IMG/VR virus record: IMGVR_UViG_3300037805_000644
Location: 124,001 to 188,000 of that record
DNA from: a virus
Direction: 5' to 3' (one strand)
DNA: 64,000 nucleotides
Part shown: positions 10,134 to 25,781 of the stretch, piece after piece
Numbering within the stretch: position 1 is the first letter of the stretch
Layout: each line of letters begins with the position of its first letter
Position numbers and translations under genes: made by a program
The notes under the pieces: model-generated
Databases searched by the model: none
The model's input: the letters and a program-made list of their open reading frames with translations, nothing else
What the model was told of the DNA's origin: nothing

Positions 10134-11576
10134 CTAGCCCACCAACTCGCTGACCCTCCCCCTCAACCACAGCACATCCGCCCAAGGGTCGTCGTACCAG
10201 ATGACCAACAGCTTCAACCCCACCTCCGCAGCTCGACGGGCCTTCAACTCGTCGAGCGCCTTCCGACGCTCAAACTCCACCTCCGTCTTGTGCCAGTAAG
10301 GCACGAACTTTCGGTGCTGTTTCCCGTGGTATTCAATCACCAGGTTGCTGTGCTCGAACCGCCCGTCGAAATACAAGTGGTAGCCCGTCTTGGGGTTCAC
10401 GATCTCAGGGTGCCACCACTCCCAGGCGTAAGGCTCACCCAGGATCTCGGCGATGGAATCTAACACCCGCTTCTGCGTTGCCAGCCGGTTCCGTGTCGTC
10501 AGACCCAGATTCTTGCAGTACCGAAGCACGGACTGCCCTGAACACCCCAGACTGAATGCTGCCAGCGCCACCTGCACCCGTCCCTTGGCGTCCTTGAAAG
10601 GGGACAGATCCGCCGCAGTGAGGTGGAGCTTGTGCGTGGGGAACACCATCACCCCGTCAGCAAACAAGGGGGCGTTGGGGTACTTGGAACGGTAATCCAG
10701 TCCTGGGTGCTCTGCGCCTAAGAGGTGGCCTGTCAGGCTCAACCCCTTCCACCCACACTCTCGACACTCGACATAATCGGCAGGCTCCGCCTTCCCTTCC
10801 CAGTAAGCGGCATCCTCCTGGGATTTTTCCGCTGCTCGGCACTCAGGGCATCGATCATCGTGCAGCGAGCCAAAGAACTTAGAGACCTCACGGTCGCGCT
10901 CGCAAGAAGAACAGGTGATCAGCTTCACCCCCTCGTAAGCATCCGCAGGAAGCCCCGCACGAATCGCCTCTGCACGCGTCCCAATGAGCTTCCGGGCTCG
11001 GATGAGCACTCCAGGGTGCGCTGCCCTGTATTCCTTTGCTGTGAGCCCGTGAGCGGCCTTTAGGTGCCCCACAAGGCTGCGGGCACGATGCCCGCACTCG
11101 CGGCACACCACGTAGTCCTCGTCAGGGTCCAGGTCCATCCACAAGGCATCCTCGGAGTCCTGTTCATAAAGGATATGGGCTTCGTCCTCAGCCTCTCGCC
11201 GATGCCGAAAGTGACCTGACAACCCACGCACCCCATCCACCTTCTGCATGCACACCGGACACTCCCGGTCGTACTTGCAGCCGTCGCAGATGAGCGCCGA
11301 ACGCTGCACCTGGTTCGCCTTGAGTGTAAAGCTGCCTTGGCAGGTCTCACACACCACAAGTACGTCACGGAAAATGCGGTTGGTTGCAAGACCCTTGGCG
11401 GTCTTGGCTGCGGCCTTCGCCTGGAGGGTCTTGCCCCTCGCCTTAAAGGCAGTTTCCCCGAACTCACCCTTCCAAATCGGGCGCAGCGTGTTGGGACTCA
11501 TGCCCAGACGCTTGGCGACCGCCTTGAAGGGCTCATCTGTGTGGAAAGCTAAAAGGGCGGTTTGTCGTCGGTCCAT
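10134..11576 (-). CDS. Zinc-finger endonuclease, Vsr/EDxHD-like (homing type)
   Basis: 480 residues. An N-terminal helix-turn-helix-like segment (AVAKRLGMSPNTLRPIWKG) is followed by several Cys-rich modules. Two of these have the ROS/MucR-like pattern CRECG, SLxGHL, H. The C-terminal part (about 385-475) carries DGRFEHSNLVIEYHGKQHRK and LLVIWYDD, resembling Vsr-like nucleases of the EDxHD/PD-(D/E)xK type used by free-standing homing endonucleases. AGGAGG precedes the ATG at 11576. It sits alone beside the tail sheath gene, a typical landing place for a mobile endonuclease. The nuclease assignment is by motif only. Confidence 0.75.
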   Translation of the reverse strand: MDRRQTALLAFHTDEPFKAVAKRLGMSPNTLRPIWKGEFGETAFKARGKTLQAKAAAKTAKGLATNRIFRDVLVVCETCQGSFTLKANQVQRSALICDGCKYDRECPVCMQKVDGVRGLSGHFRHRREAEDEAHILYEQDSEDALWMDLDPDEDYVVCRECGHRARSLVGHLKAAHGLTAKEYRAAHPGVLIRARKLIGTRAEAIRAGLPADAYEGVKLITCSSCERDREVSKFFGSLHDDRCPECRAAEKSQEDAAYWEGKAEPADYVECRECGWKGLSLTGHLLGAEHPGLDYRSKYPNAPLFADGVMVFPTHKLHLTAADLSPFKDAKGRVQVALAAFSLGCSGQSVLRYCKNLGLTTRNRLATQKRVLDSIAEILGEPYAWEWWHPEIVNPKTGYHLYFDGRFEHSNLVIEYHGKQHRKFVPYWHKTEVEFERRKALDELKARRAAEVGLKLLVIWYDDPWADVLWLRGRVSELVG

Positions 11577-11669: not shown

Positions 11670-14600
11670 TTACAAACTTGCCCGTAGGTGGAAAGTCAAA
11701 ACAATATAGAGGAGCGGAAACACAGGAGAATAGAACGCCTCCACCTCGGCCACCGTCGGGTCGTCAGCGGCCACGTTGGCCTTGACCCCCGTGTATGCCG
11801 AGATGATCTGCTGCTTCACCATCTGCTTGAGCATCATGGCGAGGCGGCCTTCGATCTGCGTCAAGATCCCGGGCAGGAACTTGATGCCGATGAACCGCTC
11901 CAGGACGGCCCGGCTCTGGCGCTGGACCTCATCGGAGATCATACGCACCGTCGGGACCTTCGTGAGCACGTTGCTCATATCGGTCGTCAGGCCGTGGCGG
12001 ACTCGGAGGTACGGCGGGCGCTCCTCCATGAGAATCACGCCCTTCTGGGCCACCTGGTTCATCTGAACCGCGTCGAGCCGGGTTGCAAGCTGGCTGAAAC
12101 CAACCAGGCGGCGACCCGTCCACGGGACAGCAACATCCACGTTCGGGGACACCACCGAGCCCGCGAGGGCCGCTGCGAGCATCGGGCCATCGACCAGGTG
12201 CTCCTTGGTGGTGTTGAACGCGTCGGTGAGCTGCACGATGGCCATGCTCGGGTACACGAGCCGCATGCGGTCCGAGTTCAAGAGCTGGGCCAGATCGCCC
12301 GCATCCTTGGGGGTGCGGCCTGCCGACATGCCGATGATGCTGGTCCGCTCCGAGCGGTACCGGATGCTCGACTGGATGCTGTTGGACCGGCTCAGGATCT
12401 GGTACAGCTCGGTCGAGTCGCCCCGCAACGGGGTGATGATGTCCGGGGTCACCTGACCGGGGAGGACGCCCTCCAGGTCGGTGATGGCATCACGGTATGA
12501 CTCGATGGAGGCGTAGTTGCTACCCTCCTCACGCTGGACCTGCTTGATGCCCACCAGGACGGCCCCGTTGAGGGTCGCCAGGAAGGACGCGAGGGTCACC
12601 GGGTTGTCCGGGTGGATCTCACCGTAAGCCGCCTCGATGGAGGCGACCTTGGTGTAGAACGCCGTCGAGAAGTCATCCTTGGAGTACGTGTACGTGGTGT
12701 AGTACACGTCACCGTTCAAGGGCTCATTCCCGCCTCGCTCATGGGTGCTCACCAGGGCCGTGTCACCGACTGCCATGCCCAGCGTGTTGGCCACCTTCAT
12801 CTCCAGACCCTTGAGGGCCAGGATAGGCAGGTTGGCATCCGTGCTGACGGTGCGGCTGATGCCGAACCGGAACGTGGCGTTGGCACCCGTCGGGTAAGCC
12901 ACCCAGGGGCCCGTCGGGTTGCTCTGCCAACCACGGGGGAGAACCGTGAAGGTCAAGCCCGTGACGGCATCCCGGTAGGTCTGACCCACCACACCATCGG
13001 AGCCGGTGCCGTTATTCAGCACCGAGTCAGCGGCCGAACCGGAACCCGTGGGCTGGTTCGAGGAGACGAAGAAGCCATCAAGACCGGCCTCACCGACCGC
13101 ACCATCGAGGTCCACGGCATCCACGCCCGTCCCAGGGAACAGCCAGGACTGGTTGACCACGGCAGCAACCGTCGGGTCACGCAGCTCAACGATGGAGCTG
13201 GTGCCGAGGCTGAGGCTCTGGAGGAACAGGAAGTCGTTACCCGCCGAGTCCTCGGCAACCCGGGCAAGACCCAGGCTGGCGAACATCTCGTTCGGGTTCG
13301 GGTTGACCGCCGTGAAGTCCAGGATCCAGGTGCCGAAGGTGGCGTGGCGGTTCTCGTTGAGAGCCGAAGCCAGTGCCTGCACCGACGGGATATCCCGCTG
13401 AGCAAGGTCACCCTCGGTGAAGCCCAAGACGCCTGCGCTGGAGCCACCGGTGATCTCCACCAGGGAGGTCACCTGCGACGTGGCCGAGCTGATCTCGATC
13501 CCTGCGCCAACCTGGTACACGATGCCATTGGCGAACACCGCTGCGGCGTTGGCACCAAACAGGGTGGTGGCACCTGCGATGGCGTCAATGACCTGATCGA
13601 GCACCGAGCCGTTGCCGGTACCCGATGCGGGGCCGAGGTCCGTCGCCGTACCCGCAGCCGAGGAGGTGAACTGCACCGTGATGGAGATCCCATCGAGGGT
13701 GAGTACCAGCTCATCATTGGCAGCTTGCACGCCCGTGCCGTCGTAGAACGTCACCTCGGGCTGGCTGGTGGCCACATCCTGACCGCCAGAGAACCCAATC
13801 TCACCCCGGAGGGTTGCAGGGGTGACCAGAGCCGAGCCGCCCGCGCCAAAGTCACCAGCCGCAAAACCGAAGCGGTCGAGTGCAGAACCTGCACCAACCC
13901 GCAGCTCGATCTGCTCCCCGTCTGCAATGCTGAGGAGCCCTGAGGAGGGGACCAGGCGGTTGCGGAGCGCCACATTGTCGTAAAGGGCACCCGAGGCACC
14001 CACCACCGAGAGCACCTTCGCCACGTCACCAGCACACACGAGGTGTGCCTGACCACTGGCGACAGCGGCACCGGCGGACCAGCCCAAGAGGAGGGCCAGG
14101 TTGTCCGCATCTGCGATGGCTGCGTTGATCAGGGTGAAGTACGCCTGGGTGTCGTCACCAGCCGCACGTACCTTGAGAACCATCCGACCGTCGGCATCTG
14201 CCGTAACCACGCAACCGGCACCGTCGAACGCGGCACCTGCTGCGGTCCAGCCAGCGGCGCCATTGAGGGCGGCCTCAATGGCGGGGGCCAGGTCTGCGGC
14301 GCTGGCGTAGGGGCCAGCACCCAAGGAGATGGCTGCACCGGGGGTGTATGTGCCCGACACGTCACCCACGTAGGTGAACAGGATGTCGCTGAAAGCGGTC
14401 AGGTCCACAGGACCGTTGACCCGCGTGGCACCCTTGTACTGGGCCATGGACTCGGGGTTGTAAACCCGCATCCCGGAGCCGCCGCCCACGTCCGAGGCAG
14501 CGCCCGACCAAGCAGCGACCGTAGCCGTGCGGGTGGCCGAAACATAGCTGGTGATGGTGCGAACATCCCCGGCCCCTGCGGCCATGGCGGGGATGCCGCT

Positions 14601-16973
14601 CACGTCCCCGACAACGACCTCCCAGTTCTCGAAGTACCCGTTGATACCCGAGCCCGGCACCGTCACCGGGATGAGGAACGTGGTCGCGGAACCACCGGCA
14701 TCCGAGCTGAGCTGGACACCGTTGGCGGCCTCGTTGACGGACTCGATGAGGTCGGATGCCGTGGAGGCATTCTGGGCCGGGATGGTTACCGGGACCTCAA
14801 CACCGTCAATGTAAAGGACCAGGTCCTCATTGGCTGCCAGGCTGTAGCTCTGGCCGATGGTGGCACCCGTGCCGCCGTCATAGTCAATCTGCTCACCGAC
14901 CAGGTTGGCCGGGGCACCACCGCTGTGGGTGGTGGGGTTGGTCAGGGGGATACCGCTGACACCCGCGTTCAGCTCGGTGTTATCCAAGCGGATGCGTACC
15001 CGGTCGGACTGGCTGGTGATGAACTCGTAGGGGCTGGCACCAGGCACAGCGAACCGGGCGGGCGTGGCGTCCTTCGACTCGAACTGAACCGTGACGATCT
15101 CATCCACAGGGCCAGTGAACAGGTCACCACCCACGCCCTCGAAGCGGGCGTCCGGGCTCAGCTCAGAGCCCGAAGGCCACTCAACGCTCACACCGAGGAG
15201 GGCAGAACCCTTGTCGCCGGTCGAGAACCCGACGTTGCGGACGGGGCTGCCAGCCTCATCCTCAATGGTGTACTGGCCCGTGCCGCTGGCCCCGATGAGG
15301 CTGGCGGTCAGGGTGTACTCATTGTCGGTCAGCGAGTTGTAGTAGAAGCTGGCGTAAACCGTGGCGCCCGTGGGCACCTCAGCGGCCAACTCGATGATGT
15401 TGCCCTCGACCTTGGTGACCGTGACGGCACCGCGATCCAAGGCGTCCTGCACACCGTAGCCCCAGTATGCATCCACCACATCAGGTCGGTTGACCGGCTG
15501 GTCAATGCGGCCGTTGGAGACGGTCTGGAACAGGCTGGCACCCAGAGGGGTGTTGCGGCCGTTGCCCAAGGTCGGGTCGAATGGAAGCTGGAACAGCTTC
15601 TTGCTCTCAACGGCGGAGCCGCCGGAAGCCTGAACCACCGAGGAGCAGGTGCTCAGGAAAGTCTTGTCATCCACCAGGGTGCCGCTGACCTGGGTGTCGT
15701 CGAACAGCTCAGACCCGGCACTCGTGTTGTCAGCCTCCACCGTCCAGGCGGTGCCCCAGAGGATCTTGTCATCCTTGAGGATGAAATCCGCGCCCTGGTT
15801 GAAGCCGGTGCCGTCAGGCACCTCACCGAGAGCGTTCACCTCAACCACGCTGTTGTGGGCGAGGTAATCGAAGGTGTTCTCCCAGGAGTTGAACCAGTAC
15901 GTCGCTGCTACCGTGGCGCCCGTTGCCGGGGCCTGGGGGAGGGTGATAGCCCGGGTGGAGCCATCCACGCTGGTCGGAATGACCTGGACGCCGTCCACCT
16001 TAACGGTGACGTGGCTCGGGTCGGTCGTGGTCACGCCGCCGTTGGTGCCATCCACGAGGGGGCCCTGGAAAGCGTAAAAGGTCTTGCGGCGGCTGGTGGT
16101 GGCACCTGAGAGCAAGCCCAGGTCCTGGTTGGCCGAGCCGCTGCCGATGGTGATGTCGTTGTCTGCCGACAGGCTCAAGGCACTCTTGCCGAAATGATTG
16201 ATGAAGGTGCCACCCACCAGCGAGCCCAGAGGAGCCGAGCTGATGAGGTTGGAGACCTGCTGCACCGTGTAGGAACCTGCCGTCAGCTCAACGCTGTACT
16301 CGGTGCCGTCCACGGTGGCGATCAGGACGTTGTTGCCGGGGGTGACGACATTGCCGTCCCCATCGAGCACGTCAGCACGCAGGGCGACGACCTCGGTGCC
16401 GGCATCTTGGGCGTTCACGTCGGAGATGCCCGAGATCGCCAGGATGAGGGCGGTGTCCACAGAGACCTGGTCGCTCAAGTCGTCGGTGACGAGCGTGTCG
16501 GTGCGGTTGAAGAAGTACGTGATCCGCACATCATCCGTCGCCAGGGGGGCCTGGGCCAGCTCCACGATGCCGTTGGCACCGTCCACCGACAGGACCACGA
16601 TGGGGAGCCCGTTGATGGTGGCGGAGACATCGGATCGGCTGTTCGTGATGGTCCCGTTACCGGAGCCGTTCACGAGAGGCAGGTCACGAACCTGGAGCCG
16701 GGTGAGCACGCCATCCCAGTTGCCCAGGGTGATCTCACCGGTACCTGAGATCGCAGCGACGGCGCGGCCGGAGGTGTCCTCCTTGACCTTGCGCTGGTCG
16801 ATGGTGGCGGAGCTACCGCGAACCACTTCGAGGTTCCGCTGAACCAGGAACTCGTTGCCCTCGCCAATGAAGACGGGGATCTTGATGGTGTCGAGACCAC
16901 CCTGAATGGGGTTCTCAAACTGCGTCCGGGAGTACGGAGCGGGAGGGGCGTAGTTGTTGCCGGGGAAAGCCAT
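11670..16973 (-). CDS. Giant phage tail sheath protein (1767 aa)
   Basis: The C-terminal domain (about 1420-1767) is sheath-like: an IVQLTDAFN segment, VDVAVPWTGRRLVGFSQL, the strongly sheath-like PPYLRVRHGLTTD, then a helical FIGIKFLPG region. The N-terminus (about 1-120) also fits a sheath start. Known sheaths are mostly 400-700 residues. Here more than 1000 residues of beta-rich inserts lie between the conserved ends. Three inserts end in a related pattern (VRITYFFN about 149, VAATYWFN about 355, VYASFYYN about 539). Short LGF/LGL-x-x-G motifs recur. The sheath is expected to contract around the tail tube during infection, with the inserts probably exposed on the outside. Confidence 0.85.
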   Translation of the reverse strand: MAFPGNNYAPPAPYSRTQFENPIQGGLDTIKIPVFIGEGNEFLVQRNLEVVRGSSATIDQRKVKEDTSGRAVAAISGTGEITLGNWDGVLTRLQVRDLPLVNGSGNGTITNSRSDVSATINGLPIVVLSVDGANGIVELAQAPLATDDVRITYFFNRTDTLVTDDLSDQVSVDTALILAISGISDVNAQDAGTEVVALRADVLDGDGNVVTPGNNVLIATVDGTEYSVELTAGSYTVQQVSNLISSAPLGSLVGGTFINHFGKSALSLSADNDITIGSGSANQDLGLLSGATTSRRKTFYAFQGPLVDGTNGGVTTTDPSHVTVKVDGVQVIPTSVDGSTRAITLPQAPATGATVAATYWFNSWENTFDYLAHNSVVEVNALGEVPDGTGFNQGADFILKDDKILWGTAWTVEADNTSAGSELFDDTQVSGTLVDDKTFLSTCSSVVQASGGSAVESKKLFQLPFDPTLGNGRNTPLGASLFQTVSNGRIDQPVNRPDVVDAYWGYGVQDALDRGAVTVTKVEGNIIELAAEVPTGATVYASFYYNSLTDNEYTLTASLIGASGTGQYTIEDEAGSPVRNVGFSTGDKGSALLGVSVEWPSGSELSPDARFEGVGGDLFTGPVDEIVTVQFESKDATPARFAVPGASPYEFITSQSDRVRIRLDNTELNAGVSGIPLTNPTTHSGGAPANLVGEQIDYDGGTGATIGQSYSLAANEDLVLYIDGVEVPVTIPAQNASTASDLIESVNEAANGVQLSSDAGGSATTFLIPVTVPGSGINGYFENWEVVVGDVSGIPAMAAGAGDVRTITSYVSATRTATVAAWSGAASDVGGGSGMRVYNPESMAQYKGATRVNGPVDLTAFSDILFTYVGDVSGTYTPGAAISLGAGPYASAADLAPAIEAALNGAAGWTAAGAAFDGAGCVVTADADGRMVLKVRAAGDDTQAYFTLINAAIADADNLALLLGWSAGAAVASGQAHLVCAGDVAKVLSVVGASGALYDNVALRNRLVPSSGLLSIADGEQIELRVGAGSALDRFGFAAGDFGAGGSALVTPATLRGEIGFSGGQDVATSQPEVTFYDGTGVQAANDELVLTLDGISITVQFTSSAAGTATDLGPASGTGNGSVLDQVIDAIAGATTLFGANAAAVFANGIVYQVGAGIEISSATSQVTSLVEITGGSSAGVLGFTEGDLAQRDIPSVQALASALNENRHATFGTWILDFTAVNPNPNEMFASLGLARVAEDSAGNDFLFLQSLSLGTSSIVELRDPTVAAVVNQSWLFPGTGVDAVDLDGAVGEAGLDGFFVSSNQPTGSGSAADSVLNNGTGSDGVVGQTYRDAVTGLTFTVLPRGWQSNPTGPWVAYPTGANATFRFGISRTVSTDANLPILALKGLEMKVANTLGMAVGDTALVSTHERGGNEPLNGDVYYTTYTYSKDDFSTAFYTKVASIEAAYGEIHPDNPVTLASFLATLNGAVLVGIKQVQREEGSNYASIESYRDAITDLEGVLPGQVTPDIITPLRGDSTELYQILSRSNSIQSSIRYRSERTSIIGMSAGRTPKDAGDLAQLLNSDRMRLVYPSMAIVQLTDAFNTTKEHLVDGPMLAAALAGSVVSPNVDVAVPWTGRRLVGFSQLATRLDAVQMNQVAQKGVILMEERPPYLRVRHGLTTDMSNVLTKVPTVRMISDEVQRQSRAVLERFIGIKFLPGILTQIEGRLAMMLKQMVKQQIISAYTGVKANVAADDPTVAEVEAFYSPVFPLLYIVLTFHLRASL

Positions 16974-17181
16974 CTCTTGACCTCTTTGGTAGTCAGATTG
17001 TCCAGCTCAAAGGCTCATCGGTGCTTGCTTCATCTCACCCTCCCTCTAGGGGAGGCGTTCCGAGGATCCCCTCGGCAGCCCAACTGAGTTCTGCTTTGCT
17101 GTCTATCTGACCACCGCACGGGGCGGGGATGGCTTTCGGAGAACAAGAGCCCTCCTCTGATAAGCCTGGGGTATAGGGGAG
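16974..17181 (-). other. Untranslated leader region of the sheath gene
   Basis: No gene is seen here. It contains two compact inverted repeats near 17038-17075 (CCTCCC/GGGAGG and CCGAGG/CCTCGG) and, at its far end (about 17170-17179), the element CCCTATACCCC on the minus strand. A leader of about 200 nt is longer than for other genes in the window and could hold post-transcriptional control of the abundant sheath. Confidence 0.5.
17169..17179 (-). promoter_or_regulatory. Class II (CTATACCC) promoter-like element
   Basis: The minus strand reads CCCTATACCCC, matching the shared core G(C/T)CTATACCC. It overlaps the end of the 62-residue gene region and is about 200 nt upstream of the sheath start. 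Confidence 0.45.
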
Positions 17182-17370
17182 CTATCGACCCAGCCGTGAA
17201 CCTTCATCCTGAGACTCGCCCTCAACCGGAAAGAAAGTCATCTTTCTAATGCCGGTCAGGCGAAGCCGCACCACGCCCACCTTCTTGAGGATCAGAGGTG
17301 CATCGTCAACCCAGCCGTCCGCCTCGGTCGCCAGGGAGCTGGGCGGGGGCAAGAGAATCGGGTCGCTCAT
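17182..17370 (-). CDS. Small hypothetical protein (62 aa)
   Basis: The start codon at 17370 overlaps the stop of the upstream gene (ATGA), which supports real translation. It is a short beta-rich peptide with a Pro-rich N-terminus and a charged C-terminus. No family is recognised. It ends just before the sheath leader. Confidence 0.5.
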   Translation of the reverse strand: MSDPILLPPPSSLATEADGWVDDAPLILKKVGVVRLRLTGIRKMTFFPVEGESQDEGSRLGR

Positions 17371-17699
17371 TCCTCTTGCCCCCTGTCGAATCGAGCCCGG
17401 AGCCGTCGGTACTCTGCGTGGTCCTGAGCTTCCTTCTCCGCCAGGGCCTCAGCAGCCTTACGTCCCCGGAATGCCTTTTTCGCCTCAGCGAGATCGAAGG
17501 GGACCTTGTCGCCCACGGGGTAAACGTAAACCTCATCCACGCTGGACTCATCGTTACCCAGGCGGTCTCCCTCTTCCAGAAAAGCATGTACCTCCTGGTG
17601 CAGAGTCTCAGGAGTGGCCTCCACAAAATCGAAAGCCTGGCCACACCCAATGGTGTAGTCGCACCCACCATTTTGCTCCATAATCACAATGTACTGCAT
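17367..17699 (-). CDS. Hypothetical protein (110 aa)
   Basis: The ATG at 17699 was chosen because it overlaps the upstream stop (TGATG); a GTG 3 nt earlier is possible. The N-terminal half is alpha/beta (MQYIVIMEQNGGCDYTIGCG) and the C-terminal half is a charged helix (AEKEAQDHAEYRRLRARFD). It is embedded in a translationally coupled run of three small genes upstream of the sheath. Unknown function. Confidence 0.6.
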   Translation of the reverse strand: MQYIVIMEQNGGCDYTIGCGQAFDFVEATPETLHQEVHAFLEEGDRLGNDESSVDEVYVYPVGDKVPFDLAEAKKAFRGRKAAEALAEKEAQDHAEYRRLRARFDRGQEE

Positions 17700-18130
17700 C
17701 ACGGATTCTTCTTCCCCAGGCCCTTCTTCATGGCCCGGCTGTTGATGACGTTTGCCCGCACGGCAAACCCCTTCTCGTCTTTGGTGATCGTCCGGTACTG
17801 GCCGTCAGGGTCCCGGGTGATGAGGTTGGGGTCAGCCCCGTCCCGCACCAGCCGCCGCTTCGCTTTCTGACGCTCCTCGATGACCGCCATGCTCTGCTCG
17901 GTGGACTTGCCAATCACCCGGTCGATGTGGGTGTCCAGGCCGTGGATGCCCGTGTTCTGGGGGCCGGGCCCATCCACGTCCTTATTGAAATGCCCACTCA
18001 CGGTGTTAGGCATGGCCCGAGGGGCGGCCTCGTCGCAGCCGGGGCAAGGCATCGGGTCCTTGGACTTGGACGCCTTGTTGGCGGCAGAGAACTGCACGCC
18101 GCATTCGCATTGGTACTTGTAAGTGGGCAA
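17699..18130 (-). CDS. FmdB-type zinc-ribbon protein (143 aa)
   Basis: The start is a TTG at 18130 with GGAG upstream. The N-terminus MPTYKYQCECGVQF plus a later CPGCDEAAPR is the four-cysteine FmdB/CxxC_CxxC_SSSS-type zinc ribbon. The remainder contains a VSGHFNKDVDGP segment and a basic tail ending GLGKKNP. The same ribbon type occurs again at 45297-45671. Both lie in virion gene clusters, so a structural or assembly role is plausible. Confidence 0.7.
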   Translation of the reverse strand: MPTYKYQCECGVQFSAANKASKSKDPMPCPGCDEAAPRAMPNTVSGHFNKDVDGPGPQNTGIHGLDTHIDRVIGKSTEQSMAVIEERQKAKRRLVRDGADPNLITRDPDGQYRTITKDEKGFAVRANVINSRAMKKGLGKKNP

Positions 18131-18172
18131 TTGGATCTCCAGGGCGGTTCCTGGCCTATCGTACCCCGCTGG

Positions 18173-18202
18173 GGTAACAACCTACCCCTTTCAGAGTAAG
18201 GG
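18173..18202 (+). promoter_or_regulatory. Weak class I promoter-like motif
   Basis: GGTAAC (18173-18178), 18 bp, TAAGGG (18197-18202), then GTAAGGAC. It is degenerate compared with the best copies. It is correctly placed to serve the short plus-strand membrane-protein gene at 18227. Confidence 0.4.
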
Positions 18203-18226
18203 GTAAGGACTGACCGGAGGGTTCAA

Positions 18227-18472
18227 TTGGAACGGAATAGCAAACTGGGGAAGATGCTCAGGCAAACCACAGAGCTTGCCTGGGAGCGAAGGGCCAAATC
18301 TGCGGAGGAGTGGGCGAAAGCAGCAGAGGTCAGGCTGGTGGCGGCTCATGCTCGGGCGGAAACCTTTAAGGGTGAACTCGGCACTACCCGGCGCTTGAGC
18401 CTGACACTGGTGCTCCTGGTGATCCCCCTCAGTGCCGAAATGCTCCTGCGGGGGCTAGGCTGGGTGGGCTAA
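18227..18472 (+). CDS. Small protein with C-terminal membrane helix (81 aa)
   Basis: The start is a TTG at 18227 with GGAGG six bases upstream. The N-terminal 55 residues form a charged helix with probable coiled-coil character (AWERRAKSAEEWAKAAEVRL). Residues about 57-78 are one hydrophobic segment (LSLTLVLLVIPLSAEMLL). It is the only plus-strand gene in this stretch and is flanked by convergent virion genes. The layout resembles small lysis or inner-membrane phage proteins, but no family is recognised. Confidence 0.5.
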   Translation: MERNSKLGKMLRQTTELAWERRAKSAEEWAKAAEVRLVAAHARAETFKGELGTTRRLSLTLVLLVIPLSAEMLLRGLGWVG

Positions 18473-18475
18473 CCC

Positions 18476-19684
18476 TCAACGGATAATGGGGTACCCTCGC
18501 CCGACCTGGTAAAAGGGGTCCTGCACAGACTCAAGGCCCAACCCCACCTTGGCTTTGATGTTCCCCTCATGTCCGTCCAGCTCATCATCGGACAAGGAGG
18601 CGATGTAGTTGGCTTGCTCTTGCGTCAGGGGGGTGGCCTGGCGCAGGGAGACGTTCAGTGGCACAAAGGCTGCCCACTCCGTCTCGACGTTCAGAGAGAA
18701 GCTGGAGTTGAAGAAATAATCGTTCCCCGTCTCATCATAGATCTCCTCAGACTCCCCCCCAATGCTGATGTTCATGACCTCCAGGCCCTCCGAGGAGAGC
18801 CGCCCGCGAGCCGAGCCAAACAGGTACATCACCGAGTTGTCGGCGATCTCCCGCTGGTCGTAAACGTCTCGGGCAAACACCTCGAACTCCATGGCCATCT
18901 CCCACCGACCCCCGTACTCCATGGCAGAGGCCATGCGGGTGGCCTCCACGACCACGGCAAGCTGGTCCTTATCCTGCACCCTCCGACCAAACGCCAACAC
19001 CACGCCGGGGATGGCGGTGTTGTTGGCGTGACGCTCTCGGATGGGGTAAGGGCCACTGCTCTCGGCCACATAACGGTAATCGGCCTGGATCCAGCGGCCA
19101 TTGCTCAAGGGGGTGTTGAAATTGACGACACCGGTGGGTGCCCCGGAACCAGGGTCGGTCTCCAAGGTGTAATTGGTACCTGCCACCAGCTTGTACCGGG
19201 CGGGCATCTCGTACAGCCTGAGAGACCCGCTCAGTGGTGGGGTCTGTAGCATCCCGGTGGTGGCGTCCGTCATCATCACCTGCTCTTGGTAAGCATTGAG
19301 GAGGGGGTCCACATAGAAGACGTTCTTGTTGTTCTCTTCCCGTACATCTAGGTAATAGACGCCAGGGGGGCTGGGGAAAGTGCCCCCGTTCGCCTGGATG
19401 GCCCTGCCGTCCTCACGGACCCACTCCACGGAATACCCAGGCTTGTTGTTGGCCTTGGCCAGGTGGCAGTGGCTGTAAATGATGCCCTTGTAGTTGTCCG
19501 CTGAGAGAGGGGAGTGCGTCCCCCCAGTGGACTTAACGACGATGCCCCTCTGGGGGCGCTCCCGGAAGCTGTACTTGCCCTGGATGTTCTCGGGCAGGTC
19601 TTCAAACTTGGGGTGTGTCGTCCAGTACGTGCGGAGTTCCTGGGTGAAACGCCGGGTCAGGTAATCGGTGAGGTGGAAAAACAC
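18476..19684 (-). CDS. Probable virion structural protein (402 aa)
   Basis: The protein is mostly beta and has no enzyme motif. The N-terminus is helical (MFFHLTDYLTRRFTQELRTYW), followed by many Gly/Tyr/Asn-rich strands and a segment LAVVVEATRMASAMEYGGRWEMAMEFEVFARD. The size, composition and position between the GroES-like gene and the sheath suggest a tail or neck component. A class II element lies 40 nt upstream. The specific role is unknown. Confidence 0.6.
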   Translation of the reverse strand: MFFHLTDYLTRRFTQELRTYWTTHPKFEDLPENIQGKYSFRERPQRGIVVKSTGGTHSPLSADNYKGIIYSHCHLAKANNKPGYSVEWVREDGRAIQANGGTFPSPPGVYYLDVREENNKNVFYVDPLLNAYQEQVMMTDATTGMLQTPPLSGSLRLYEMPARYKLVAGTNYTLETDPGSGAPTGVVNFNTPLSNGRWIQADYRYVAESSGPYPIRERHANNTAIPGVVLAFGRRVQDKDQLAVVVEATRMASAMEYGGRWEMAMEFEVFARDVYDQREIADNSVMYLFGSARGRLSSEGLEVMNISIGGESEEIYDETGNDYFFNSSFSLNVETEWAAFVPLNVSLRQATPLTQEQANYIASLSDDELDGHEGNIKAKVGLGLESVQDPFYQVGRGYPIIR

Positions 19685-19776: not shown

Positions 19777-20103
19777 TCACGGGACCAGCACGGATCCTGA
19801 GGACTTCTCCTCGATGTGCCCGAGGACTTGCGGCACGACCAGAAGGACGCACTTCTGGTCCAGGCCCTCCAGGCCCTCCATCTCGATCTGCCCGGCACTC
19901 AGATAAGCGACCCGCTGGCCGGGCTTGAATCCGGTTGGGACCACCTTGCCGTTGTCGAAGGTACGGCCGGAGCCCACCTCAACCACCAGGCCCGTCTCAT
20001 AGCTCTTGGTCTGGATGCCCCGGGGGATGATGAGCCCCTTTTGGGTTTCGCTCTCGATGTCGGGTGCGACCAGAATTCGGTTACCATTGGGGATAAAACG
20101 CAT
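19777..20103 (-). CDS. GroES-like co-chaperonin
   Basis: 108 residues with the Cpn10 pattern: NRILVAPDIESETQKGLIIP, then GLVVEVGSG, then FKPGQRVAYLSAG, and an LLVVPQVLGHI end strand. This resembles phage-encoded GroES substitutes such as T4 gp31, which cap GroEL and help fold the capsid protein. AAGGAG precedes the ATG at 20103. It lies among virion genes, two genes from an actin/Hsp70-fold ATPase. No GroEL partner is in the window, so use of host GroEL is inferred. Confidence 0.8.
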   Translation of the reverse strand: MRFIPNGNRILVAPDIESETQKGLIIPRGIQTKSYETGLVVEVGSGRTFDNGKVVPTGFKPGQRVAYLSAGQIEMEGLEGLDQKCVLLVVPQVLGHIEEKSSGSVLVP

Positions 20104-20146: not shown

Positions 20147-20545
20147 TCAGGTAGTCACCACCGGAGCCTCATGGGGGCCCCGGCCAGGGAAAGTCAGCCG
20201 GTCCGCCAGGAGCTGGGTCCACCCCGTAAACTCATGGGTCATGGAATTCAGGGTCCTCGGTGAAGGACCCGTGGCGTCAAACAGGGTGGCAGGGTTGCCG
20301 CACGGGTTGTGGCGGCTCGGGCTTGCATCAGGCCCCTCCAGGATGAAGGCTGCCCAGAGAGCCTTGTGAGCACTGCCCACACCCCACACCTCGACCAGCT
20401 CCAGCACCTCTTCGTCCTTGGCCCGGAACTCCCAACAATTACGCCCGGCTGTCCCGTACTGTTCGAGGTCATAGGGGGTGAACTCAGCCACCATCCGCTG
20501 AGCCGTCAAGAAATCGCCCTTGGGGACGTAAGTGCGTGCCTTCAT
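20147..20545 (-). CDS. Hypothetical protein (132 aa)
   Basis: The start overlaps the stop of the actin-like gene (TGATG), so the two are coupled. The sequence (MKARTYVPKGDFLTAQRMVAEF...) has a small helical N-terminus, an acidic middle (RAKDEEVLELVEVWGVG) and a Pro/His-rich tail. No family is recognised. Coupling suggests it may be a partner of the ATPase. Confidence 0.6.
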   Translation of the reverse strand: MKARTYVPKGDFLTAQRMVAEFTPYDLEQYGTAGRNCWEFRAKDEEVLELVEVWGVGSAHKALWAAFILEGPDASPSRHNPCGNPATLFDATGPSPRTLNSMTHEFTGWTQLLADRLTFPGRGPHEAPVVTT

Positions 20546-21564
20546 CAGTCGTCCTCGTGCTCAATGATAGCCTGGGTAAGCATCCCGTTGGCCACTGCAT
20601 TCAGAGGGTCTGAGGCGTGTCGGATCTCCGACACCTTGAGGGGGAACCGCTTCTGCCGCTTCTTGAACTCTTTCTCGAAGAGCTGCACGAAATTCCCAGC
20701 CTTGCTCGTACCGCCTGAGATCACCAGGGGGATCGGCTTGGGCATCTCAAACTGCCCCTGGATCTGCTTGAAACGCTTGGCGATCTCGTCGAGGGTGTAG
20801 CGGATCAGTTCCTTGTAATAGAAAGAGACGGCCTCCTCCTCACGCCCTTGCGGGTTGAGCAGGTCCACCCCAGCCTCCTTGAGGGCACAGATACGGGCCT
20901 GGGTGGACCCGAGGGACCCCGCCACCCCCGCATCAATCCAGTCCCCACCCCGGGCCACTGAGAACGCCAGACCTTCGATGGTATTGATGGCCAGTGCCAC
21001 GTTGGTCATGCCGGCCCCGAAACTCAGGGCGATGCCGCTGAACCCGTCGCCAGAGCACTCGGAGAAAATGATGGACATCGCCTCGTTGGCGGGCCAGGGG
21101 GTGTAGCCGCACTCCTCCACGATCCGCTCAAACACACCCTTGTGGTAAATCACGTCCCGGTCAGGTCGATCAATGGGTGCTGCGGGGACCGAGAAATAGC
21201 AGTGCTCATCAGGCACCCGAGGCGGGCCGAGGATCTGCTTGATCATCAAGCCCAGCACCTCCAGTGCCTCTACCTCACCGGCGGAGACCAGGCCCGCCTG
21301 GAGGGGTCGGCGTGCCTCTTTGCCAAACACGTTGGCTGTCTCCATCGCAGCGTCCCCCAAGAGGAGAACGTCCTCACCTCGCTCAACGAAACTGGTGCCC
21401 GAGAGCTTGAGCATCTTCTTGGCGGAGGGGGGGAGGTCCAGGAAAGCATCCCGCATCCGGGTGTGCTCTACCGCAGTACCCGTGTGCCGAGCAGCCACCA
21501 GGTTCATGGTGCCGATATCGAGGCCAACCCCCAAAGGGGTCTTGGTGTCGTTCTTTGCAGGCAT
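20545..21564 (-). CDS. Actin/Hsp70-superfamily ATPase
   Basis: 339 residues with the three nucleotide-site signatures of the actin/ParM/Hsp70 fold: phosphate 1 LGVGLDIGTMNLVAA (about 11-25), phosphate 2 GIALSFGAGMTNVAL (about 177-191) and adenosine IPLVISGGTSKAG (about 283-295). ANEAMSIIFSE and ARGGDWID also match connecting motifs. The length fits ParM/MreB/PilM-like filament proteins and is too short for a full DnaK. It lies inside a virion gene operon. Candidate roles are a DNA- or capsid-positioning filament or an assembly factor. Filament formation is inferred, not shown. Confidence 0.8.
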   Translation of the reverse strand: MPAKNDTKTPLGVGLDIGTMNLVAARHTGTAVEHTRMRDAFLDLPPSAKKMLKLSGTSFVERGEDVLLLGDAAMETANVFGKEARRPLQAGLVSAGEVEALEVLGLMIKQILGPPRVPDEHCYFSVPAAPIDRPDRDVIYHKGVFERIVEECGYTPWPANEAMSIIFSECSGDGFSGIALSFGAGMTNVALAINTIEGLAFSVARGGDWIDAGVAGSLGSTQARICALKEAGVDLLNPQGREEEAVSFYYKELIRYTLDEIAKRFKQIQGQFEMPKPIPLVISGGTSKAGNFVQLFEKEFKKRQKRFPLKVSEIRHASDPLNAVANGMLTQAIIEHEDD

Positions 21565-23294: not shown

Positions 23295-24289
23295 CCCCAC
23301 TCCTCTCGCAGGGGATGCCAAAGCCGCAGCATCCGCTCACCGGCGGCAATACGGGTGGCGGACCTTCCCAGATGAGCCAGGGCCCACCCCGAATGGATCT
23401 CTGATTCCGAGTACCGCACCACTGAATACCCCAAGGTATAAAACCCTTGTGCTGTCTGCACGTCATCCGCAATCCGGGCACGGGCATCCCCGAAAATGTA
23501 GCCAGGGCCATGGAAAGCTTCCCCATCACACAGAACAACCAGCTTTTGCTTGCCGAGAATAACTTTGATGTCTGCTTCCCGAGGTCTCCACACCCCCTCG
23601 AAATCAAGGCTAATCCAATCGTTCAAGACATGGGAATACCCCTGAGCGGCCAGAGTTTCCCCAAAGCCCCTCTCCAATGCGGATCCGCCACCAAATCTAC
23701 GTTTGATTTCTGCGGCTTTCTGCTCTGGGGTCATGGCGTTCCATGCCTGGTGTGCTTTTTGGATGTTAGCTGTGCAGGCCACCTTTTTCCGCAGGGCTGC
23801 CAATTCTCGGTAGCCCCCGACACCAAAATGATCTTCTGCGATGGCCTTGAAAGTTTTGTAAGGGATCCCGAGCCTCCGGGTAAGCCCGCCCACCGTCTCC
23901 CCCGCCCTGTAACCAGAGGCCACTTCACGGTAAAGGGGGTCCCCTTTCTGCCAGTTGCAGATGTCTTCGGGTTGGGGTCGGGAGATGACCTCGGGCAGGG
24001 TCGGGTGCTGCACCTGGGTTTTCTCATACCTGCGCTTGCCCAGCCGATTGCGGAGTTCCTGGCAGGAAGGGCACCTTTTACGGTGAACCTTTTTGGGGTC
24101 CTGAACCTCCCAAACCCCGCCACACTTACGACATTCGGGGTACCCCCGATACTGGGCACGACCCTGCCGCCACCGCTCTCGGAGGGCCAGGTGCTCGGGA
24201 TCGGGGTTGAACCGGAAATGCTGAGACAACGCTCGGTTGTTCCTTACGGACTTACCGCACACCTCACAGGAACCAAGAAACGACCCCAT
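23291..24289 (-). CDS. Zinc-finger endonuclease, Vsr-like (homing type)
   Basis: 332 residues, with the ATG at 24289 preceded by GGAGG. The N-terminus has a Cys/His finger (CEVCGKSVRNNRALSQHF) and a second four-Cys module (CRKCGGVW, CPSCQE). A helical DNA-binding middle follows (RLGIPYKTFKAIAEDHFG). The C-terminal nuclease-like domain contains READIKVILGKQKLVVLCDGEAFHG, resembling Vsr/EDxHD homing nucleases. Its 5' end overlaps the 3' end of the structural gene at 24264 by 26 nt, consistent with insertion exactly at the gene end. Confidence 0.72.
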   Translation of the reverse strand: MGSFLGSCEVCGKSVRNNRALSQHFRFNPDPEHLALRERWRQGRAQYRGYPECRKCGGVWEVQDPKKVHRKRCPSCQELRNRLGKRRYEKTQVQHPTLPEVISRPQPEDICNWQKGDPLYREVASGYRAGETVGGLTRRLGIPYKTFKAIAEDHFGVGGYRELAALRKKVACTANIQKAHQAWNAMTPEQKAAEIKRRFGGGSALERGFGETLAAQGYSHVLNDWISLDFEGVWRPREADIKVILGKQKLVVLCDGEAFHGPGYIFGDARARIADDVQTAQGFYTLGYSVVRYSESEIHSGWALAHLGRSATRIAAGERMLRLWHPLREEWG

Positions 24290-25781
24290 CACAAACCTCC
24301 ACTACCAGCCGGTACACCAAGTACAGGCTGATAGGGGAAATACCGTAGCTGGTGTTCTCCCAAACCTTGGTGCGCCCGCGCTTCTCATTGTGGTCTGGGA
24401 CGGAGCCCTTCTCAGTCTGGAGCGGGGTGACCACCTCGGGCCCTTCGGGGTAGGTGGGCCCTGCCCAGCCTTCATCCTGATCGTAAGACCGCTCACCGGT
24501 CACCGGCATCCGGGGGTACATCGGAGCAGGCTCACCCGACTTCGGGCGGGTCTCGGGCCAGGGGAGTTCCGTGGTCCCGTCGATGGGCATCCGGTACCGG
24601 ATGTCGCCCTCAGCGAGATATCCGATGTTGAAATGCTGCTGGAGCAGGTTACCCCGGTGCGTGGGCCTCCGCACTGGACCCACGCTGTACCGCTCATTGG
24701 TCTGCTTGACGATGAAATCCCGCTGGGTGAGGAGAGGAGAGGGACCCGTCCACACCTCGTACTGGTGTTCCTTGTGCCGCCCCAGGGAGGTCTGGGAGAT
24801 GCGGCGCTCCGCGTCGTCAGGGGCGATGATGGTCTCAAAGGGGCCGTCGTACCCACCAACGAATCCTGTCCCATAGCAGGTCAGGCAGTTGTTCTCAGGC
24901 TGCTTGCTGTACTCCAGCGCACGCACATCCTCACGGGTGCATTCGCAGGGTGATCCACAATGCTTGCGGATAAACAGCTTCACCCGTTCACCACCACACC
25001 CGAGGATCCACTGGTTGCGGCGCACCGCCTCTTCCCAGATGTAATCCATGCTCTCAACCTCGGCGGTTGAGAGTGGTTTGGTTTGGTTGAGGGGGGTCTC
25101 AGTGTAGCCGGAAGGGGTCTCGGAGTCGATGACCACAGTGGTCAGCCGATACCAGTTCCACTTGTCTAGGCCCGAGGCCACGTAGTTGGCGGGGGCCCAG
25201 TATTCGACACGAACAACGGAATCCGCTGTCGGGATGACAGCGTGCTCTACGCTCTCGGTCCCCACCTCAAACCGTGCCTGGTTGATGAGGGTCACCTCAC
25301 CCGCAGGGCCAAACACCTCCGAAACGGGGACCTCTACATCATCAATGTAGACGGTCAGGTCAGCAGGGTGGTTGGCGAATGTCGGTTTGTCATAGGGGGC
25401 CGCATCACGCTGCTTGCAGATTCGGCGGGTGGTTCGGAACTGGAACCTGCGATCATTGGGCTTGTCGCCCTTGAAATTCCAGGCGACATCCCACCGCACT
25501 GTCTCTGAGACGAACTGGAGGTCCGTCCGGTCCCGGTAAAACCCGGACCCGATGGGGAACTCGTTGATGCGGTAAAAGGGCCCCCGGTCGGAGCTGTCCG
25601 ACCGATAGACGTTCACACCTACAACGTGATAGGGGGTGTTGCCGGATAGGAGGGTGGGGTTATCCCACCGGAGATCGATCACCCCTGGCAGGTACGGGCT
25701 TACCGCCGCCCCGTCACTGGGAGGGAGGGGGTAGCCCCCCCCACCAAACCCAGAACTCTTAGGATCCCATCCAGCGGCCAT
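24264..25781 (-). CDS. Probable virion protein with Cys-rich zinc motif (505 aa)
   Basis: The N-terminus is Gly/Pro-rich (GWDPKSSGFGGGGYPLPPSDG), followed by beta-rich domains. A four-cysteine module lies at about residues 275-310 (CGSPCEC, then NNCLTCYGTGFVGGY). This Cys arrangement occurs in head-tail connector or neck-type proteins of large phages. The last 20 residues overlap the downstream endonuclease gene. The structural role is inferred from composition and context. Confidence 0.6.
   Translation of the reverse strand: MAAGWDPKSSGFGGGGYPLPPSDGAAVSPYLPGVIDLRWDNPTLLSGNTPYHVVGVNVYRSDSSDRGPFYRINEFPIGSGFYRDRTDLQFVSETVRWDVAWNFKGDKPNDRRFQFRTTRRICKQRDAAPYDKPTFANHPADLTVYIDDVEVPVSEVFGPAGEVTLINQARFEVGTESVEHAVIPTADSVVRVEYWAPANYVASGLDKWNWYRLTTVVIDSETPSGYTETPLNQTKPLSTAEVESMDYIWEEAVRRNQWILGCGGERVKLFIRKHCGSPCECTREDVRALEYSKQPENNCLTCYGTGFVGGYDGPFETIIAPDDAERRISQTSLGRHKEHQYEVWTGPSPLLTQRDFIVKQTNERYSVGPVRRPTHRGNLLQQHFNIGYLAEGDIRYRMPIDGTTELPWPETRPKSGEPAPMYPRMPVTGERSYDQDEGWAGPTYPEGPEVVTPLQTEKGSVPDHNEKRGRTKVWENTSYGISPISLYLVYRLVVEVCDGVVSWFL

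Follow-up and report, generated by a model that had tools for sequence, protein, structure and literature searches.

A giant contractile tail sheath protein with an enlarged, partly duplicated insert, encoded in an environmental virus record

Results and discussion

A protein of 1,767 amino acids with a genuine contractile sheath core, i.e. a larger-than-usual form of the protein that builds the outer, contracting tube of viral tails, is encoded within the window analysed here (64,000 nucleotides, bases 124001-188000 of a 222,939-base virus record, which is possibly incomplete). Its gene is a single uninterrupted open reading frame (ORF) with an ATG start; the extent proposed in the first-pass annotation (11670-16973) was correct, and the minus strand can now be added to it. 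Searches with PHROG 2839 and with the protein's own sequence identified one sheath copy in the whole record. The features of the gene are collected in Table 1.

Sheath core

Since Pfam PF04984 (Phage_sheath_1) had no match anywhere in the record and Phage_sheath_1C gave a weak match in only one of six relatives, the sheath assignment rests on PHROG 2839, profile-profile comparison and the predicted fold. PF04984 is a model of one lineage, and sheath status does not require it; filing of the protein under this family was dropped for want of a match and the broader sheath claim was kept.

Residues 1420-1762 matched PHROG 2839 ("tail sheath") with an E-value of 6.6e-27. A profile of the C-terminal core (23 relatives) was aligned over 331 columns (residues 1395-1767, E = 6.8e-39) with a profile of ordinary sheaths built from four sequences (phage G, Finch, Nappy and LE2-3). 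Residues 640-1767 were modelled with AlphaFold2 (61 sequences, mean pLDDT 84), and the best structures found for the core with Foldseek were solved sheaths: that of phage 812 (E = 2.8e-12, TM 0.72 by target length), as well as those of pyocin (3j9q, TM 0.62), AFP/PVC and T4 (E = 7.6e-8). The best viral predicted structure was gp178 of phage G (E = 5e-25). The first-pass annotation had described the ends of the protein as those of an ordinary contractile sheath, and had pointed to structure prediction and a C-terminal profile search as the means of checking this, with a C-terminus lacking sheath matches as grounds for rejection. Both analyses uphold its description of the C-terminus, and alignment with phage G residues 3-38 extends this to the N-terminal arm. 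A contracting tube in the virion would be expected from the fold and from the relative Tunturi_5.

Position and layout of the insert

The N-terminal arm (residues 8-43) is collinear with residues 3-38 of the phage G sheath, with a modest score of 24.4 against 17.9 for the best of 40 column shuffles; a weaker, longer alignment joins residues 7-59 with phage G residues 2-54. Residues 1-60 showed low pLDDT in the model folded without the C-terminal core. On the other side of the insert, residues 1383-1470 align with phage G residues 191-289. Because the flanks align in this way, residues ~60-1383 (about 1,320 residues) stand in the slot of about 136 residues in the 579-aa sheath of phage G. The earlier estimate of more than 1000 inserted residues therefore holds, the protein being 1,188 residues longer than its phage G counterpart. 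As the outermost domain of the phage G sheath comprises residues 120-218 (PMC8570332), the expansion lies in an outward-facing slot, and the inserted domains would project outward on the tail.

Small beta-rich domains, arranged in a string, account for most of the additional mass. The AlphaFold2 model of the N-terminal 720 residues was modest (pLDDT 71, pTM 0.39) and Foldseek found no PDB match for it with an E-value below 0.001, so the placement of the domains on the tail is one that we infer. Family searches of this region returned short segments: PHROG 19400 (unknown function) at residues 203-239, a partial match to Pfam DUF2460 at residues 320-362 (E = 4.2e-6; 26.8 bits, below the curated cutoff of 30.4) and DUF4815 at residues 363-408 (E = 0.0023; 16.7 bits, below the cutoff of 30). 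The segment returning into the core is conserved, and Tunturi_5 matched residues 1292-1470 with an E-value of 6e-21.

Table 1 Features of the giant tail sheath gene (positions in the window)
Feature	Residues	Position	Strand	Basis
Giant tail sheath gene	1-1767	11670..16973	-	1,767 aa plus stop; PHROG 2839
N-terminal sheath arm/core segment	1-60	16794..16973	-	Alignment with phage G sheath 3-38
Strand-turn (alpha-type) beta domain, copy 1	61-163	16485..16793	-	84-157 similar to 290-363; pLDDT mostly 77-91
LGL-type domain, copy 1	164-297	16083..16484	-	210-297 similar to 1082-1195
Strand-turn (alpha-type) domain, copy 2	298-372	15858..16082	-	84-157 similar to 290-363
Conserved region with weak DUF4815-like segment	373-456	15606..15857	-	Pfam
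Possible third strand-turn domain	457-570	15264..15605	-	Motif; self-match at noise; aligns with Tunturi_5 433-515
Variable block	571-1290	13104..15263	-	Largely missing from Tunturi_5; some relatives with added inserts of 92-124 aa; modelled from residue 640, high confidence
Borderline LGL-type copy	711-755	14709..14843	-	Score 41-45 against control ceiling of 38
LGL-type domain, distal copy	1082-1195	13389..13730	-	Score 75 against 210-297
Conserved return segment into core	1291-1394	12792..13103	-	Conserved in Tunturi_5; part low pLDDT
C-terminal contractile sheath core	1395-1767	11673..12791	-	PHROG 2839, profile-profile, modelled fold

Internal duplications

Windows taken from the family profile were aligned against its remainder (hhalign), and the best score of the column-reversed profile (38) was used as the noise ceiling. 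Two pairs lie well above it, namely residues 84-157 with 290-363 (score 118, hhalign E = 6.8e-19) and residues 210-297 with 1082-1195 (score 75, E about 1e-9 to 4e-10), and domain duplication, suggested earlier from recurring motifs, is thereby supported. The motif reading was right in kind, but too generous in copy number. Of at least three strand-turn inserts proposed, units 1 and 2 form the first pair, whereas the third (residues 513-551, score 37) does not rise above the ceiling. The LGL-type repeat stands for the second pair and is borderline for residues 711-755 against 210-252 (score 41-45), but residues 857-928 (score 35) fall below the ceiling, and the LGW/FGF motifs near residues 961 and 1037 have no support beyond the motif itself.

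Two further origins were considered and rejected. Derivation of the inserts from a duplicated native sheath outer domain was unsupported in the profile comparison with the four ordinary sheaths, to which the inserts show no detectable similarity. Additional inserts of 92-124 residues, present in some relatives, were considered as further LGL-type copies; their best score was 27, with shuffles reaching 24, and they had no Pfam match above cutoff.

Relatives of the giant sheath

The first search returned relatives with 76%, 52% and 45% identity. An alignment search then detected a relative on 298 viral contigs (80 of which were kept for further work), and relatives were also present on four contigs in prokaryotic genome bins; several of the source contigs are 402-536 kb long. 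The 52 complete relatives that were aligned range from 1,454 to 1,892 aa and, apart from the most divergent one (1,454 aa), have about 1,600-1,890 aa; some of these ORFs are identical or near-identical and come from related samples, and two (L025 and L051) are shortened by a frame break. Among 50,697 deposited phage records, protein coverage of at least 80% was found only in LR745208.1 (485 kb, unannotated), with Tunturi_5 reaching 59%. Judging from these sequences, relatives are common in environmental giant bacterial viruses, and the family appears to be widespread and largely length-conserved, not an oddity.

The first-pass annotation had named a fusion artefact of assembly as a finding that would overturn its proposal. 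Since dozens of relatives on independent contigs and assemblies, including the deposited 485-kb phage genome, share the same architecture, such an origin of the long ORF can be dismissed with near certainty.

Several relatives show irregularities of their own. In L025 and L056 the sheath frame is split into two ORFs, by a frameshift or a sequencing error, and the frame break of L051 lies near residue 1614. L051 also forms a mosaic pair with L064, in which much of the region encoding residues ~481-1360 is 95-100% identical at the DNA level (with a dip at 801-960) and the flanks are 82-90% identical; this pattern suggests that recombination has occurred within the insert.

Gene neighbourhood

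Most genes neighbouring the sheath loci had no family match. In relatives, a recurring order was often found upstream of the sheath, comprising (i) a ~460-aa gene, (ii) genes of unknown function, (iii) an actin-like (Volactin) gene, (iv) a ~400-aa gene and (v) a ~150-aa gene. In the window, the 339-aa protein encoded at 20545-21564 (minus strand) matched Pfam Volactin with an E-value of 3.4e-69; this cluster is located upstream of the sheath in 18 of the 32 loci examined (E = 3.1e-72 for the copy in L053). Volactin, an actin-like protein, has been characterised in the archaeon Haloferax volcanii (PMC10869688), and the conservation of such a gene close to the tail sheath of a phage merits separate study.

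Other genes of this region include a GroES-like co-chaperonin of 108 aa (19777-20103, minus strand; PHROG 3188, E = 1.6e-9) and, directly downstream of the sheath, a gene for an HNH/homing-endonuclease-like protein (10134-11576, minus strand; PHROG 559, E = 7.6e-10), whose cluster has members after the sheath in several relatives too. In the relative L013, a MerR-like gene followed by a gene for an 834-aa VIT and VWA protein (15791-18693 of that locus) lies downstream of the sheath, and these clusters recur in several loci. A 505-aa protein encoded at 24264-25781 (minus strand), whose gene is conserved ahead of the sheath gene in most relatives, is a homologue of Tunturi_5 gp322, which is annotated as a minor tail protein. 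Single-linkage clustering had hinted at shared ancestry of this gene with the sheath, but this was rejected, as a direct search found no sheath match. A search of the record for an S77 protease gave no match, a result of no weight, since no control matched either.

Two tiers of constraint

Comparison of 2,345 pairs gave mean pairwise identities of 0.557 for residues 61-570, 0.398 for residues 571-1290 and 0.578 for residues 1291-1767. Pooled dN/dS values, obtained from 24 close, non-independent pairs, were about 0.10-0.14, 0.16-0.23 and 0.115 for residues 61-570, residues 571-1290 and the C-terminal core, respectively. Among nine chosen pairs, dN/dS of the 571-1290 block exceeded that of residues 61-570 in seven, with the order reversed in L077/L083 and in the pair of the window and L001; the figures are rough, dS being high in several pairs and near saturation in some. 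The sequences thus indicate that residues 61-570 are conserved about as strongly as the core. The 571-1290 block has a higher dN/dS and is still under purifying selection; there was no sign of positive selection in it, and in the pooled close pairs no region had a dN/dS near 1. The extra 92-124-residue inserts of relatives occur at several sites between residues 703 and 953.

As the N-terminus, the core and the 61-570 units are all retained in Tunturi_5, where most of the 571-1290 block is missing, a stepwise growth of the sheath is suggested by this comparison.

Comparison with known sheaths

Multi-domain sheaths of large phages have been classified as type 3; the longest one in the published table has 1,283 aa, and roles in stability or adhesion have been proposed (Evseev et al. 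2022, PMC9230969). Examples are LacPavin_0818_WC45 (1,283 aa), Mad1_20_16 (1,248 aa) and Atu_ph07 (1,086 aa). The range of 400-700 residues initially quoted for typical sheaths is fair, but leaves out the multi-domain sheaths of 800-1,283 aa already published (PMC9230969). Like the type 3 sheaths of jumbo phages, the window protein has N- and C-terminal core parts with several extra domains (often Ig-like in type 3) between them. Compared by description only, it differs in being about 38% longer than the largest sheath of the survey, internally duplicated and divided into a conserved and a variable block. Type 3 is defined by at least three domains, the additional ones lying between the core parts and facing away from the tube; multiple insert domains and the insertion point are supported here, and an orientation away from the tube would be expected. 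Since such sheaths of up to 1,283 aa have been described, the protein is a larger variant of the multi-domain sheaths, extreme in size and not unprecedented in kind. The literature searched, with most subscription journals outside its scope, contained no description of the present family and nothing closer than type 3.

The cultured relative is gp326 (1,204 aa) of Tunturiibacter phage Tunturi_5 (host Tunturiibacter psychrotolerans X4BP1), whose N-terminus, 61-570 region and core are homologous to those of the window protein (about 31% identity). The tail of Tunturi_5 has been seen extended and contracted (PMC11924767). No imaged virion is known for the full-length members. Among the latter, the 1,665-aa unannotated ORF of the uncultured phage LR745208.1 is alike in its full architecture (43-44% identity) and slightly shorter. 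The sheaths of Bacillus phage G (gp178, 579 aa) and mycobacteriophages of Bixzunavirus (581 aa) share the core family (PHROG 2839; 27% identity in the C-terminal core profile alignment), but have a small native outer domain in place of the about 1,320 inserted residues.

Proposed role of the inserted domains

The protein, the one sheath detected for this jumbo myovirus, probably combines a contracting sheath core with a structural, lattice-stabilising layer (residues 61-570) and a tolerant, exposed decoration (residues 571-1290). Residues 1-60 and about 1395-1767 constitute the standard core, as homology and modelling show for its fold; it is expected to surround the tail tube as six-start rings and to contract. 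The slot between them is expanded with small beta-rich domains, partly via duplication (two pairs). Because residues 61-570 are constrained about like the core, they are read as a second, "inner" layer, which may contact neighbouring subunits and stiffen or stabilise the tail. Residues 571-1290 tolerate substitutions and whole extra domains, and are read as an "outer" surface decoration, possibly making weak adhesive contacts; both terms denote an inferred, not a measured, placement. For phage 812, a stabilising effect of an added domain on the sheath disk has been suggested (cited in PMC9230969). The core-like conservation of residues 61-570 could instead reflect a conserved ligand. A bolder version, to which we give little credence, is that the 61-570 domains interlock across subunits into a second concentric wall, giving a double-walled contractile tail, the outer wall of which would have to rearrange during contraction.

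The inserts may alternatively serve mainly in host binding, a role raised in the first-pass annotation for inserts projecting from the tail. Ig-like or beta-sandwich units would then protrude from the tail and adhere weakly to surface polysaccharide. Adhesion has already been suggested for additional sheath domains (PMC9230969), and the 571-1290 block, being variable and having gained domain-sized inserts, behaves like many exposed adhesive modules in these respects. Host binding nevertheless appears unlikely as the main role, given that residues 61-570 match the core in conservation throughout the family, no region has a dN/dS near 1 and no carbohydrate-binding family was found in Pfam, PHROGs or NCBIfam. 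Contacts among neighbouring tails or virions, or the anchoring along the tail of whiskers or fibres made of separate proteins, would find a parallel in the hair-like appendages on the tail sheath of some jumbo phages (PMC5259590, PMC13282480), and exposed beta-rich domains could serve as docking sites; with no partner whisker protein identified next to the gene, we regard such a role as improbable. The correlation between sheath size and genome size reported in the survey (PMC9230969) and the many indels tolerated in residues 571-1290 would also suit a neutral accretion of domains in a large genome, without specific function, but the length of most complete members (about 1,600-1,890 aa) and the purifying selection acting throughout make this very hard to accept.

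The structural layer with an exposed decoration therefore remains the preferred reading. The protein raises the upper size of contractile sheaths roughly 40% above the largest one in the published survey. The split in constraint makes the role of added sheath domains testable, for the conserved and the variable block separately, and Tunturi_5, as a cultured relative, makes such tests practical.
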